Below are positions 4,214 to 11,454 of a DNA stretch of 64,000 bases, piece after piece; the first letter of the stretch is position 1, and every line of letters begins with the position of its first letter. This DNA comes from Planctomycetaceae bacterium (GTDB taxonomy: Bacteria > Planctomycetota > Planctomycetia > Pirellulales > PALSA-1355). The position numbers and the translations under genes were made by a program. Under the pieces are notes generated by a model. That model was not told the origin of the DNA. It did not search any database and saw only the letters and a program-made list of their open reading frames with translations. The DNA is taken from the NCBI GenBank assembly GCA_003153375.1, contig PLYM01000047.1, positions 1 to 64,000 on the forward strand, written 5' to 3'.

Positions 4214-5535
<1,322 letters not shown>

Positions 5536-5536
<1 letters not shown>

Positions 5537-5716: not shown

Positions 5717-5746
5717 TTGGACAGCCCGTCAGGCGAGTGCTACTAT
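5717..5746 (+). promoter_or_regulatory. Sigma70-like promoter ahead of glgE leader / small RNA
   Basis: TTGGAC at 5717-5722, an 18-base spacer and TACTAT at 5741-5746. Transcription would begin near 5753, exactly where the first arm (GGCTTTGCC) of the leader structures begins. Confidence 0.55.
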
Positions 5747-5752
5747 TACACA

Positions 5753-5827
5753 GGCTTTGCCGGACGCGTAGGATTGGTTGCCTCGAGGCAAAGCCCCCTC
5801 GGTGCCAGCGGGCAGCGGGGTTTTTTT
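5753..5827 (+). ncRNA. Structured glgE leader with competing stems (candidate attenuator or ~75-nt small RNA)
   Basis: The stretch holds a perfect 9-base inverted repeat, GGCTTTGCC (5753-5761) with GGCAAAGCC (5787-5795), and a 14-base palindrome TTGCCTCGAGGCAA (5778-5791). A terminator hairpin follows whose 5' arm AAAGCCCC (5790-5797) overlaps the 3' arm of the first stem. The two folds are therefore mutually exclusive, as in transcription attenuators and riboswitch expression platforms. glgE begins 58 bases after the T-run. A free-standing small RNA ending at the terminator is the alternative. It resembles no riboswitch class I can name. Confidence 0.45.
5790..5827 (+). terminator. Intrinsic terminator upstream of glgE
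   Basis: AAAGCCCC pairs with GGGGTTTT (one G-T wobble). An inner TGCC/GGCA hairpin sits at 5803-5806 and 5811-5814, and seven consecutive T residues run from 5821. No complete gene on this strand ends just upstream, so it most likely ends the short leader transcript. Confidence 0.6.
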
Positions 5828-5884
5828 GTTGCTCAACTCGGCCGGCCATGCGACAGGATCGGGCCGTTTCACAGGATGTGATGT

Positions 5885-7858
5885 ATGGATTCGCCAGATT
5901 CGCGGGTTGAAGTTTGCCGCCAACGGGTGGCGATCGAAAACATTCAACCCACGGTCGATTGCGGCCGGTTTGCCGTCAAACGGCTCGTCGGAGAGACGGT
6001 GCTGGTCCGGGCCGACGTCTTCGCCGATGGCCACGACGTGGTGCGGGCCGTGCTGTTGACCCGGCCTCCGGGCGCAAGTGATTGGCGCGAAACGCCGATG
6101 ACCGACCTGGGCAACGATGCCTGGCAGGCCGACTTCTCGCTCGCCGAACTTGGCGGCTACGAATTCACGATCGAAGGTTGGGTCGATGCATTTGCGACCT
6201 GGCATCGCGACCTGAAAAAACGCTTGGAAGCCGGTCAGGAAGTGACCGTCGACCTGGCGATCGGAGCGCAGCTCGTCGGCGAAGCTGCCCAGCGAGCCCG
6301 TGGCGCCGACGCTCAAAGCCTGCGACATTGGCAACAAACCCTGGCTAGCGGCTCGGCGGGTTTGGAAACGTATCGCGCTGGTGCGGCGGAGCTGGACGAG
6401 CTGATGGCCCGGAATGCCGATCGACGCCTGGCAACGCGGTGCGAGCCACCCCGGCGGATTACGGCCGATCCCAGCAGGGCCGAATTCAGTTCCTGGTACG
6501 AACTGTTTCCGCGATCGTGTGCCCGCGAAGCGGGGCGGCACGGCACGTTCGACGATTGTCGCGCTTGGCTGCCGCGATTGGCCGAGATGGGTTTTGACGT
6601 GCTCTACATGCCGCCGATCCACCCGATTGGCTTGACGCATCGCAAGGGAAAAAACAATGCCACGGTCGCCGCGCCCGACGACGTCGGCTGCCCCTGGGCG
6701 ATCGGCTCCAGCGAGGGGGGACACAAGAGCATCGACGCGCAGCTCGGCACGTTGGCCGACTTTCGCCGTTTCCGCGACGAGGCTCGGCAGCGCGGAATCG
6801 AACTGGCTCTCGACATTGCCTTTCAGTGCTCGCCGGACCACCCCTATGCCAAGGAGCATCCCGAGTGGTTTCGGCAGCGGCCCGATGGCACGATCCAATA
6901 TGCCGAGAACCCGCCCAAGAAGTATCAGGATATCTATCCCTTCGACTTCGAGGGCGTCGGCGCGAAGGCCCTGTGGCAAGAGCTGACCGACGTGGTGCTC
7001 TATTGGTGCTCGGAAGACATCCGTGTGTTTCGCGTTGATAATCCGCACACCAAGCCGTTTGCCTTTTGGGAATACCTGATCGATCAGGTCAAGACACGGT
7101 ATCCCGAGACGATCTTCCTATCCGAAGCCTTCACGCGTCCGAAGGTGATGTACCGGCTGGCCAAGCTGGGATTCAGTCAGTCGTACACCTACTTCACCTG
7201 GCGAAATACCAAGGCCGAATTGATCGAATACTTCACGGAGTTGACCGGAAGCGGGCTGAGAGATTATTTCCGCCCCAACTTGTGGCCCAACACGCCCGAC
7301 ATTCTGGTTGAGCACCTGCAGACCGGGGGCCGCGCGGCATTTGTCGCCCGGCTGGTGTTGGCGGGCACCCTGTCGGCGAACTACGGCATCTATGGTCCGC
7401 CGTACGAGACGCTGCAAAGCCTGCCCCGCGAGCACGGCAGCGAGGAGTATCTCGATTCGGAGAAGTATCAGTTGCGCAGCTGGGACTTTAGCCAGCCCAG
7501 CGAGCTGCAAGAAGTGATTTCGGCCGTCAATCGGGCCCGGCGCGAGAATCCGGCGCTGCAGTCCGACGCCAGTTTGCAGTTCCATGAGGTCGATAACGAC
7601 CAGTTGCTGTGCTATAGCAAGCGAAGCGCCGATCAGAAGAATCTGATCGTCGTGGTCGTGAATTTGAGCTTTCACAAGGAACAACACGGCTTCGTCACCT
7701 TGCCGCTGGCCGAATGGGGAATCGGTCCTGAGCAGCCCTATCGGGTACACGATTTGCTGAACGATCAGGCGTTCCAATGGCATGGTCCGCGCAATTTCGT
7801 GGAGCTCGACCCACAACGAGTGCCGGCGCACATTTTCCGCGTGTCCCCCTCGGCGTGA
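5885..7858 (+). CDS. glgE: Alpha-1,4-glucan:maltose-1-phosphate maltosyltransferase
   Basis: 657 aa. This GH13 subfamily enzyme transfers maltosyl units from alpha-maltose-1-phosphate to the non-reducing end of alpha-glucan in the cytosol. An N-terminal beta-sandwich region (about 30-130) and a long helical insert precede the (beta/alpha)8 barrel starting near FSSWYELFPRS (about 201). The GlgE-specific stretch FRVDNPHTKPFAFWEYLI contains the nucleophile D385, and FLSEAFTRPKVM gives the acid/base E414. EHPEWF and the NPPKKYQDIYP stretch are also family-like. Length is close to the usual 650-700. The start at 5885 follows a weak AGGA. It heads a plus-strand operon with maltokinase (51-base gap) and treZ. 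Confidence 0.93.
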   Translation: MDSPDSRVEVCRQRVAIENIQPTVDCGRFAVKRLVGETVLVRADVFADGHDVVRAVLLTRPPGASDWRETPMTDLGNDAWQADFSLAELGGYEFTIEGWVDAFATWHRDLKKRLEAGQEVTVDLAIGAQLVGEAAQRARGADAQSLRHWQQTLASGSAGLETYRAGAAELDELMARNADRRLATRCEPPRRITADPSRAEFSSWYELFPRSCAREAGRHGTFDDCRAWLPRLAEMGFDVLYMPPIHPIGLTHRKGKNNATVAAPDDVGCPWAIGSSEGGHKSIDAQLGTLADFRRFRDEARQRGIELALDIAFQCSPDHPYAKEHPEWFRQRPDGTIQYAENPPKKYQDIYPFDFEGVGAKALWQELTDVVLYWCSEDIRVFRVDNPHTKPFAFWEYLIDQVKTRYPETIFLSEAFTRPKVMYRLAKLGFSQSYTYFTWRNTKAELIEYFTELTGSGLRDYFRPNLWPNTPDILVEHLQTGGRAAFVARLVLAGTLSANYGIYGPPYETLQSLPREHGSEEYLDSEKYQLRSWDFSQPSELQEVISAVNRARRENPALQSDASLQFHEVDNDQLLCYSKRSADQKNLIVVVVNLSFHKEQHGFVTLPLAEWGIGPEQPYRVHDLLNDQAFQWHGPRNFVELDPQRVPAHIFRVSPSA

Positions 7859-7909
7859 CTTGCGATGCCGTGCGAGACGACAGCAGTTTGACAATCGACG
7901 GGATAGATC

Positions 7910-9577
7910 ATGGAAGAGATCGCACTCGACGCCGCGTTGCCACGCTTTGATCCCCAGGCCGTCTGGAGCCAGTTGGTCGGTGGCCCCGCAGAGGCCAGCT
8001 TTCTCGCGGCGATCGGTCGCGCGATCGTCTCGCGGCGCTGGTTCGGCGCCAAGACCAGGACCATTCAATCGCTCGAGATCCTCGATGCGTTGCCGCTATC
8101 GATCGTCGCACGACTGATGTTGTTGCAGCTCGAGTTTGCCAACGGCCCGGCCGAGATCTACCAGGTTCCGCTAACGCTGGCGACCGGGGACCGGGCCTCG
8201 TGGCTCTTGTCTGAGCAGATCGCATCGCTCTGGGCGCGAATCCGCGTGGGCGATGGCCCCGATCCGGTCGTTCTTGTCGACGCTCTGAATGACGCGGCGG
8301 TCCAACGGGAACTGCTCTATGCCCTGGAAACCGCGGCTCCCATACAAGGCATCGCCGGCGAGCTCGTAGGCTGGCGAACGTCGCAATTCGTGGCACTACG
8401 CGGAGCGACTGACGTGGATTTGCCGCCGCAGCTGGTGGGCGCCGAGCAAAGCAACAGCTCGATCGTCTATGGCGACCGGCTGATCCTGAAGGTATTCCGT
8501 CGGGTCGAGATGGGCATCAATCCCGACGTCGAGATCTGCACTCGCTTAACCGACCGGGGTTTCGAACGCGTCCCGCCATTGGCCGGGGGCCTGGAGTATT
8601 GCAGCGCGGGCCGCGAGCCTTGGACGCTTGCGATGGCCCAAGGCTTCGTGCCGAATCAGGGTGACGCCTGGCAAAACGCTTTGCGGCGGTTGAAGACGTT
8701 CGTGGAGAGCATGCTCACCGATCCACAAGCCTTGCCGGGCGCGGTTCGGTTACCGGTGGAGGGTCTGTCGACGACGTCCGAGAGTCCGTTGCCGAGCGGA
8801 GTTGCGCGTGCATTTCCGGACTTCGCTGCCGATATCGAGCGGTTGGGCACGCGCACAGCGCAGATGCATCTGGAATTGGCCGCAGGAGGCGAGGATCCGG
8901 CCTTCCAACCCGAGCTTTTTTCAGAGGACGACCGCCGGGCATGGGCCGCGCGAGCTCGCGAGCTAACGCGAGAGACCTTCGAGCTGTTGCGAGAGCAGGG
9001 GCCGCGGCTGGCGGTCGCGGCCCGCAAGGACGCCGCGAATCTATTGCCGCTGGAACCGGTCGTTCACGAGCGCTTCGATCGGCTGGCGGAGTATCCAGCG
9101 GAAGTATTCAAGATTCGTGGCCACGGCGACTATCATTTGGGACAAGTGCTCGTCGCCGGGGATGATTTTTACGTCATCGATTTCGAAGGCGAACCGGCAC
9201 GACCGCTCAGCGAACGACGTCAGAAGCAACTGGCCCTGCGTGACGTGGCGGGCATGATCCGTTCGTTTCATTACGCCGGTTGCTCGACCGCCAACGAGTT
9301 GCTCGTGTCCGCCGTGCCGCACGATGCGCAACTCATTGAGCAGTGGACCGGGGCCTGGTACTTCTGGATGAGTGTCGCCTTTCTATCCGCCTACCGCCGC
9401 GCAGCCCATGGAGCACCGTTCCTGCCTTCGGCCAGCCACGATTTCGAACAGCTTTTCGGTGCCTGTCTGCTCGAGAAAGCCATCTATGAATTGCGCTACG
9501 AGCTCAACAACCGGCCCGACTGGGTCTACCTTCCCCTGCGCGCCCTGCACGAAATTCTCGGTAACCGTAACATCTAA
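7910..9577 (+). CDS. mak: Maltokinase (Pep2/Mak-like, stand-alone)
   Basis: 555 aa. The protein resembles maltokinases, which phosphorylate maltose with ATP to give alpha-maltose-1-phosphate, the GlgE substrate. An N-terminal cap contains RRWFGAKTR (about 42-50), characteristic of this family. The kinase-like core carries NSSIVYGDRLILKVFRR (nucleotide-binding lysine) and the aminoglycoside-phosphotransferase-type catalytic loop RGHGDYHLGQV (about 403-412), followed by VIDFEGEP (metal-binding aspartate). In many bacteria this module is fused to trehalose synthase; here it stands alone between glgE and treZ. The 51- and 29-base spacings support one transcript. Confidence 0.88.
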   Translation: MEEIALDAALPRFDPQAVWSQLVGGPAEASFLAAIGRAIVSRRWFGAKTRTIQSLEILDALPLSIVARLMLLQLEFANGPAEIYQVPLTLATGDRASWLLSEQIASLWARIRVGDGPDPVVLVDALNDAAVQRELLYALETAAPIQGIAGELVGWRTSQFVALRGATDVDLPPQLVGAEQSNSSIVYGDRLILKVFRRVEMGINPDVEICTRLTDRGFERVPPLAGGLEYCSAGREPWTLAMAQGFVPNQGDAWQNALRRLKTFVESMLTDPQALPGAVRLPVEGLSTTSESPLPSGVARAFPDFAADIERLGTRTAQMHLELAAGGEDPAFQPELFSEDDRRAWAARARELTRETFELLREQGPRLAVAARKDAANLLPLEPVVHERFDRLAEYPAEVFKIRGHGDYHLGQVLVAGDDFYVIDFEGEPARPLSERRQKQLALRDVAGMIRSFHYAGCSTANELLVSAVPHDAQLIEQWTGAWYFWMSVAFLSAYRRAAHGAPFLPSASHDFEQLFGACLLEKAIYELRYELNNRPDWVYLPLRALHEILGNRNI

Positions 9578-9606
9578 CCGTCCACCCGCCGCGAACCACG
9601 ACACCG

Positions 9607-11454
9607 ATGTTGCCTGGCGCCATCTTCCAACCTGACGGAACGACACGATTTCGCGTTTGGGCTCCGGCCGTCGAGAGGATCGCGCTGCGCATCCTGGCGC
9701 CTTGCGAAGGTGAATCTCCGGCCGCTCCCCCCTGCCCCGCCCGGTTGGTGCCGCTGGATGACGTTGGCGCTGGATACCATGAGATCGCCGTGCAAGGCGC
9801 CGGCCCCGGGACACGCTATTTTTTTCGACTCGACGATCGAGTCGACCGGCCTGACCCAGCTTCGCGCTTTCAGCCCGTTGGGGTCCACGGCCCATCGCAA
9901 GTGGTGCGGAGCGACTTTGAATGGACCGATGGTGAGTGGCGCGGCGTGGCTCGCCAGGACCTGGTCATTTATGAAGTACACGTCGGCACGTTCACGCCGG
10001 GCGGGACATTCGGCGACATGATTGCACGGCTCGATACGCTGGTTCGCCTGGGCGTGACCGCGATCGAGTTGATGCCGGTGGCGCAGTTTCCTGGCGGTCG
10101 AAACTGGGGTTATGACGGCGTGCACCCCTATGCGCCGCAGAATTCTTACGGCGGGCCCGAGGGTCTTAAGTCGCTGATCGACGCCTGTCATTCCCGGCGA
10201 CTCGCCGTGATCTTGGACGTGGTATACAACCACCTCGGCCCCGAGGGCAACTACCTCGCGGAGTTCGGGCCTTATTTGTCTGACCGCCATCGGACGGCCT
10301 GGGGCGCGGCGATCAACTTCGATGGTCCGGACAGCGACGCGGTGTGCGATTTTTTCATCGGCAACGCGTTGTATTGGATCGATGAGTTTCATGTCGATGG
10401 TTTTCGGCTGGACGCAACCCATGCCATCCATGATCAAACTGCCCAGCCGTTCCTGAGGCGGCTCACCGAGGCCGTGCACCAGCGAAGCGAGCGCCTCGGG
10501 CGACACATACTCGTGGTGGCCGAGAACAATGCCAACGATCCCCGCATCGTGACCGACGCGCGGCAAGGAGGTCTGGGGTTCGACGGTCAGGTGCTCGACG
10601 ACTTTCAACGCTCGCTGCACGCGCTACTGACGCGAGAGCGAGCCGGCTACTATAGCGACTTTGGTACCGTGGCCGATTTCTCCAAGGCCGCCACGGAAGG
10701 CTTCGTGCTGACGGGACAGCATTCAAAGTACCGACGCCGGCTCTGGGGCGCGCCCGGCGCCGACGTGCCCGGCAACCGGTTGATCGCCTACGCGCAGAAC
10801 CACGACACGGTCGGCAATCGGCCGGGCGGCCAGCGTCTCGGTCGTCTGGTCAGTTTCGAGGAGCTCAAGCTGGCGGCGGCCGCCACGATCTTATCACGCT
10901 GTGTTCCGATGCTCCTCATGGGCGAGGAATATGACGAGCCGGCCGGCTTTCACTACTTCATCAGCCACCTCGATGCCGGACTGGTCGACGCGGTTCGTGC
11001 CGTTCGTCTCCGACAGTTCGCGGCGCACGGTTGGCAAGACATGGATCTTGATCCGCAATCGCCCCAGACATTCGAACAATCCCGGCTCGCGCTTTTTGAC
11101 GCTCACACGGGGCATCACGCGGTGCTCTGGCGCTGCTATCAAGAACTGATCCGACTTCGCAAAGCCTTTCCGGTGATTCGAGAACAATCGCAGCCAAAAA
11201 CTGCAACTCTGGCGTGCGGCGACCGAGGGCTGGTCGTCAGGACTTACGAGACCAAGTCCGAGTCGGTCTGCCTCCTGCTGAACTTCGATGGCGGGCCGCA
11301 AACGTACTCACTGCCGAGCCACGTCGATCGTCGCTGGTCGCTGGCGTTCAATTCGGCCAGCACCCGTTGGAGCGGTCCCGACGTCGACGAACCGCTGAGA
11401 TCCGATGCGGTCGTTCTGTCGCCCAAGTCGTGCGCGATGTGCGTGAGCCGGTGA
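9607..11454 (+). CDS. treZ: Malto-oligosyltrehalose trehalohydrolase
   Basis: 615 aa. This GH13 enzyme hydrolyses the glycosidic bond next to the trehalose end of maltooligosyl-trehalose, releasing trehalose. An N-terminal beta-sandwich (GTTRFRVWAPAVERIAL, about 11-27) is followed by the barrel with VYEVHVGTFTPGGTF-like start (I-Y-E-VHVGTFT here), NWGYDGVHPYAPQNSYGGP, DGFRLDATHAI (nucleophile near D269), VVAENN (acid/base near E305) and AQNHDTVGNR (near D400). Length matches TreZ. Its usual partner TreY is not in the window, and co-location with glgE and maltokinase is unusual. It is convergent with pyc. Confidence 0.92.
   Translation: MLPGAIFQPDGTTRFRVWAPAVERIALRILAPCEGESPAAPPCPARLVPLDDVGAGYHEIAVQGAGPGTRYFFRLDDRVDRPDPASRFQPVGVHGPSQVVRSDFEWTDGEWRGVARQDLVIYEVHVGTFTPGGTFGDMIARLDTLVRLGVTAIELMPVAQFPGGRNWGYDGVHPYAPQNSYGGPEGLKSLIDACHSRRLAVILDVVYNHLGPEGNYLAEFGPYLSDRHRTAWGAAINFDGPDSDAVCDFFIGNALYWIDEFHVDGFRLDATHAIHDQTAQPFLRRLTEAVHQRSERLGRHILVVAENNANDPRIVTDARQGGLGFDGQVLDDFQRSLHALLTRERAGYYSDFGTVADFSKAATEGFVLTGQHSKYRRRLWGAPGADVPGNRLIAYAQNHDTVGNRPGGQRLGRLVSFEELKLAAAATILSRCVPMLLMGEEYDEPAGFHYFISHLDAGLVDAVRAVRLRQFAAHGWQDMDLDPQSPQTFEQSRLALFDAHTGHHAVLWRCYQELIRLRKAFPVIREQSQPKTATLACGDRGLVVRTYETKSESVCLLLNFDGGPQTYSLPSHVDRRWSLAFNSASTRWSGPDVDEPLRSDAVVLSPKSCAMCVSR

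Follow-up and report, generated by a model that had tools for sequence, protein, structure and literature searches.

In the leaders controlled by BglG, SacY and LicT, a hairpin with GGATTG...GGCAAA-CC flanks stands right before a terminator, ahead of a sugar operon. The general mechanism is that the CAT domain stabilizes an antiterminator stem and the terminator is shortened (PMC3369936, PMC1489936). At S. mutans bglP, a short terminated RNA was observed (PMC1489936). In the ANTAR-dependent attenuators (NasR, EutV), a stem-loop is likewise followed by a terminator, and P1/P2 loops with A1 and G4 are described (PMC3369936). Riboswitches and leaders described in Rfam share with the present locus a position upstream of a metabolic operon. 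The loops of ANTAR attenuators are hexaloops; in the fold of the leader analysed here, 25 nt lie between the arms of the 5′ stem (with a 10-nt hairpin loop), the terminator loop has 4 nt, and loops of the P1/P2 kind with A1 and G4 were not seen. With the intrinsic terminators of 5′ leaders, i.e. premature termination, the present leader shares a GC-rich stem and seven U, codirectional with the gene, between a promoter-like site and the start codon. It differs from them in that no alternative antiterminator fold was found and in its occurrence in one genome only.

The leader lies upstream of glgE on a contig of a Pirellulales-like genome (G000), which was grouped in one family with the relatives G001 to G003. 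The window, i.e. the whole stretch of DNA analysed, is 64 kb long. A sequence-only reading had proposed an attenuator/riboswitch or small RNA with mutually exclusive stems. The layout it described, a promoter followed by an early terminator, does exist, and is most naturally read as giving a premature stop or a short RNA; a switch is supported neither by the fold nor by the relatives. The leader is tentatively interpreted here, at somewhat under an even chance, as a lineage-specific, unconditional and promoter-proximal intrinsic terminator that would throttle glgE and yield a short RNA. Among the papers listed by literature searches, none was seen to describe this leader, judging by titles and the starts of abstracts.

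The glgE locus

The genes around the leader were as follows.

4214 to 5536, + strand: integrase gene upstream of glgE
5448 to 5521, − strand: tRNA-Asn(GTT), divergent neighbour upstream of glgE (ARAGORN, Rfam)
5885 to 7858, + strand: glgE, alpha-1,4-glucan:maltose-1-phosphate maltosyltransferase, 657 aa (PF11896, PF21702; solved GlgE structures, E about 4e-175)
7910 to 9577, + strand: gene of a maltokinase-like protein, next in the apparent operon (TIGR02457 above cut-off; PF18085)
9607 to 11454, + strand: treZ, malto-oligosyltrehalose trehalohydrolase (TIGR02402 above cut-off)

The glgE, maltokinase-like and treZ genes are adjacent on the + strand (5885–11454) and form an apparent operon; TreS was absent among the six window proteins scanned. 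Inspection of the open reading frame found no in-frame ATG, GTG or TTG upstream of the glgE ATG at 5885, and the terminator described below therefore lies outside the coding region. Its T-run starts 64 bases ahead of the start codon, and 57 bases separate the end of the run (5827) from the ATG (58 in the sequence-only reading).

The tyrosine-recombinase/integrase frame runs into the 3′ end of the tRNA-Asn gene, an arrangement like the edge of an integrated island. A second copy of the 24-base tRNA-Asn end was not found within the 64-kb window.

Promoter-like site and terminator

The following features were placed in the leader, all on the + strand.

5717 to 5746, + strand: promoter-like site (−35/−10 consensus, 9/12 matches plus TG before the −10)
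5753 to 5795, + strand: 5′ stem-loop, GGCTTTGCC (5753–5761) pairing with GGCAAAGCC (5787–5795) (folding, pair probability 0.99–1.00)
5771 to 5795, + strand: RAT-like string GGATTG-N11-GCAAAGCC (exact match to a pattern written after the site had been seen)
5778 to 5791, + strand: palindrome TTGCCTCGAGGCAA, 14 bases, a weaker alternative hairpin (-5.4 kcal/mol)
5797 to 5827, + strand: intrinsic terminator, stem 5797–5820 and T-run of seven T 5821–5827 (folding and T-run scan)

The arms, the palindrome and the terminator with its seven T had all been pointed out in the sequence-only reading and were found where it had placed them. The promoter TTGGAC-18-TACTAT that it proposed is also present to the letter. 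The −35 can be read as TTGGAC (5717–5722, 18-base spacer) or as TGGACA (5718–5723, 17-base spacer), the −10 is TACTAT (5741–5746) and the extended −10 is TGCTACTAT (5738–5746). However, chance alone should give 3.4 matches of the 9/12 type in 12 kb, and seven were found. The recurrence of the −10 in the family speaks for the site: an extended −10 (TGNTANNNT; TGYTAC in the family members) lies at -147 in the window, at -130 in G002 and at -159 in G001. Such an element was present 130–159 bases before the glgE start in 3/3 family members with glgE versus 3/34 of the other regions. The promoter therefore looks inherited, which would place the terminator inside the glgE leader. By eye, no good −35 was seen beside the extended −10 of G001. 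From the position of the −10, transcription is predicted to start at about 5752–5754, and the 5′ stem-loop begins within about 2 nt of this predicted start.

The terminator has a GC-rich stem directly followed by the U-run, and its core has an energy of -15.3 to -16.3 kcal/mol. On both strands of the 64 kb, it is the sole run of at least seven T that adjoins a stem of -15 kcal/mol or below, and 50 dinucleotide shuffles of the window gave three such sites in all. A sample of 332 kb of G000 (the window together with 268 kb taken from 20 contigs) held 10 sites with at least six T and an abutting stem of -12 kcal/mol or below, some of them inside open reading frames. Among these 10, only the leader terminator is followed within 150 bases by the start of a codirectional open reading frame of at least 100 aa. 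The terminator is more than a chance occurrence. The 9-bp inverted repeat alone is unremarkable in the window, where 30 such repeats within 40 bases were counted (overlaps counted apart; shuffles mean 20, range 8–35). The fold of 5747–5827 was moderately better than that of shuffled sequences (z -2.36; 5/200 equally good), and the fold of 5747–5900, with 73 more bases, was no better than shuffles (z +0.50).

Folding of the leader

The stems had been described as mutually exclusive. This was rejected after constrained and unconstrained folding: the predicted transcript has a minimum-energy fold (-36.1 kcal/mol) in which the 9-bp stem stands next to the core of the terminator. The nine 5′-stem pairs had probabilities of 0.99–1.00, and the nine terminator pairs had probabilities of 0.77–1.00. 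When the RNA was folded stepwise, the 5′ stem was complete by 5796, weak alternatives appeared at 5808–5811 and both stems stood from 5820 on. Forbidding the terminator stem left a best fold of -13.2 kcal/mol, a cost of 22.9 kcal/mol, so no competing intrinsic antiterminator fold is near. When the 5′ arm was blocked, the palindrome hairpin formed and the terminator still stood (-23.3 kcal/mol).

The second arm of the 9-bp stem does overlap the 5′ arm of the terminator, as had been noticed, but the overlap is with an optional A-U extension (AAAGCCCC/GGGGTTTT) and leaves the core free. The two stems compete solely at this extension, with which the terminator is 1.4 kcal/mol more stable than the core by itself (-17.7 versus -16.3 kcal/mol). 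Similarly, the palindrome is a third alternative in the sense that it competes with the 9-bp stem, but it is far weaker (-5.4 versus -15.2 kcal/mol). The antiterminator/terminator exclusion of an attenuator or riboswitch was thus absent from the predicted folds. Overlapping inverted repeats beside a terminator do not by themselves make a switch, and here the overlap touches the optional extension only.

Under the preferred interpretation, a terminator acting unconditionally, RNA polymerase would start at about 5752–5754 and the RNA would carry the 9-bp stem-loop right at its 5′ end. The polymerase would then meet the terminator (5797–5827) and mostly stop, and the product would be an RNA of ~75 nt with two stem-loops. 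The read-through fraction alone would transcribe glgE, the maltokinase gene and treZ, so that glgE would be throttled at a fixed ratio; the 5′ stem would neither block the terminator nor be needed by it. A stem at the extreme 5′ end protects short RNAs, and the 5′ stem may stabilize this one. Transcription, termination and the effect on glgE are all inferred here from the DNA.

Occurrence among relatives

Matches to glgE were found in 40 of the 196 genomes of the order, a patchy distribution. Upstream DNA was cut for 37 of them, and G166, G190 and G010 were dropped from the upstream set as their glgE match was partial. A strong terminator (at least six T and a strong stem) near the glgE start was present in one of the 37 regions, that of the window, and in 0/36 others. 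Counted from the match start, weak T5 candidates lay at -217 (-10.3 kcal/mol), -151 (-9.5 kcal/mol) and -122 (-10.5 kcal/mol) in three other regions. A single occurrence among the 37 regions is not the conserved structure upstream of the same gene that an attenuator would show, and one sequence gives no covariation count. The restriction of the leader to a single genome is also a point against the unconditional terminator.

The divergent tRNA-Asn upstream of glgE is kept in G001 (whole) and in G002 (partial, cut by the contig end). Both arms of the hairpins and the T-run are missing upstream of glgE in these two genomes, the two family members with glgE. In G003, of the same genus, a contig begins within treZ, its first base falling at residue 203. 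No close tRNA-Asn was found there among the matches listed (the best match of more than 60 aligned bases was 79% identical), and the two tRNA places looked at were tRNA-Met and tRNA-Lys. Most likely, the tRNA-Asn–glgE locus is missing from the G003 assembly, and the lack of a glgE match in G003 is therefore no evidence of loss. The sequence-only reading had named lack of conservation of both arms in relatives as one of two observations that would count against it. Neither arm occurs in the two informative family members, so that half of the case against it is in place, with the caveats that there are only these two relatives to go by and that the G003 assembly most likely lacks the locus.

Alternative explanations

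A stand-alone gene for a trans-acting small RNA of ~75 nt, merely preceding a glgE that is transcribed by read-through or from its own weak promoter, is unlikely. A promoter-like site and a terminator, as such a gene would have, are present in the sequence, and the predicted fold is a compact two-hairpin RNA. A terminator of the same form, CCCC...GGGGTTTTTT, closes the rRNA operon after 5S in G001 and G002 and follows tRNA-Met in G002. Written as CCCC-N10-22-GGGGTTTTTT, this form was found at five places in G000, four in G001, three in G002 and one in G003, and the reversed control pattern 0, 0, 1 and 1 times, respectively. In a Rfam scan of the 12 other places, 3/12 directly followed a stable RNA gene, namely the 5S rRNA (G001, G002) and tRNA-Met (G002) just mentioned. 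The form therefore serves stable RNA genes of this family, which fits weakly with a discrete short RNA at the leader. Against such a gene, the four other G000 sites of this form follow no known RNA gene and the promoter seems to be common to glgE leaders that lack the RNA.

No homologue of the RNA was found either. Searches of G000 for paralogues of the leader by DNA, pattern or covariance model gave none, as did searches of the family for homologues by DNA or covariance model. Across 395 further genomes of the order, the covariance model gave 28 other weak hits at E 0.05, versus about 20 expected by chance. Among 14 fetched hits, five were read as alignments and 11 with their flanks; they resemble unrelated terminators or coding DNA. 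A DNA search of 396 other genomes of the class gave only pieces of 20–35 bases, and viral contigs held no exact match to a 25-base piece of the leader.

Other sites were recorded during these searches. A candidate short RNA is marked by a CCCC...GGGGTTTTTT terminator at L183:1420-1535 (+), about 75 bases past a −10-like site (TACACT); no long codirectional open reading frame lies between the two. A 6S RNA candidate at L187 (G000:C274:21572-21772, minus strand) scored 40 bits, short of the 46.4 that Rfam sets as its cut-off. One of the covariance-model hits, in a genome outside the family (f8), has a very similar terminator (L130:1501-1547, +) between divergent genes identified by eye as acetolactate-synthase-like and DAHP-synthase-like; the terminator, upstream of the DAHP-synthase-like gene, is without the 5′ stem.

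A regulated attenuator, in which an unknown protein or metabolite would stabilize the RAT-like hairpin (5771–5795) or another fold and weaken the terminator as the sugar supply changes, is clearly unlikely. It is still weighed because an unconditional stop before an operon would be wasteful. The layout is like that of BglG/LicT leaders: GGATTG...GGCAAAGCC stands directly before a terminator with an extended stem, ahead of a sugar operon, and a short terminated RNA is predicted as at bglP. In full, the string reads GGATTG-GTTGCCTCGAG-GCAAAGCC. Its letters resemble the RAT consensus, the pattern that it matches having been written from the site, and the site is 4 bases shorter than the usual 29-base form. 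However, the profile of the CAT RNA-binding domain (CAT_RBD, PF03123) found no protein in any of the 196 genomes of the order, G000 included, and was positive in 4/14 well-known genomes used as control. Unlike in the described leaders, there is no overlap between the RAT-like hairpin and the core of the terminator, which stays intact with the 5′ arm blocked, and the leader is not conserved. Membership of the BglG/LicT RAT class, attractive by sequence, was rejected since PF03123 is absent from the 196 genomes. It is very improbable that an RNA-binding protein with no relation to the CAT domain antiterminates the glgE operon at the RAT-like hairpin (5771–5795). If true, antitermination in response to sugar would have evolved here independently, as a new system, in an order without a CAT-domain antiterminator in the sampled genomes.

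Other forms of control were rejected. Rfam 15 gave no match at gathering scores and a relaxed search gave one adjacent match at chance level (E 0.99); a described riboswitch family was ruled out by the absence of a match. No leader open reading frame with ATG was found between 5752 and 5827, where only TTG and GTG frames occur and run through the terminator. A translation-controlled attenuator with a leader peptide was rejected in the absence of a suitable frame before the terminator. Control by a metabolite, a protein or a translation event, as suggested by the sequence-only reading, found no exclusive fold, Rfam match, PF03123 protein in the order sample or leader frame to support it.

The terminator might instead insulate glgE from transcripts of the integrase gene, with a fortuitous promoter match. 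The integrase gene reads toward glgE across the tRNA-Asn gene and ends 285 bases before the T-run, and at the corresponding place the two family members have no terminator. But the best promoter candidate precedes the terminator, which would thus also stop the gene it protects, and the extended −10 recurs in relatives. This explanation is quite improbable.

Repression of glgE by CsrA through GGA motifs in the leader, with the short RNA competing for CsrA, is a long shot: eight homologues exceed the Pfam cut-off in G000 and, among the motifs at 5762, 5771, 5856 and 5874, one is part of a hairpin that covers the ribosome site (TCACAGGATGTGA), but four GGA are not above shuffles (mean 2.5; 96/500 reach 4), ANGGA is absent from the leader, and GGA hairpins at the start site occur in 4/37 glgE genes, including the window, versus 2/58 control open reading frames and in 0 of the other family members. 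CsrA homologues over the Pfam cut-off are unusually many in the family, with 9 in G003, 14 in G001 and 12 in G002 besides the eight of G000 (loci L196-L203).

Significance

The leader, taken as a lineage-specific terminator with a 5′ stem-loop, is ordinary but probably real. Literature searches turned up little on RNA regulation in planctomycetes. If real, the leader would be a simple example of an alpha-glucan (GlgE pathway) gene limited by premature termination.
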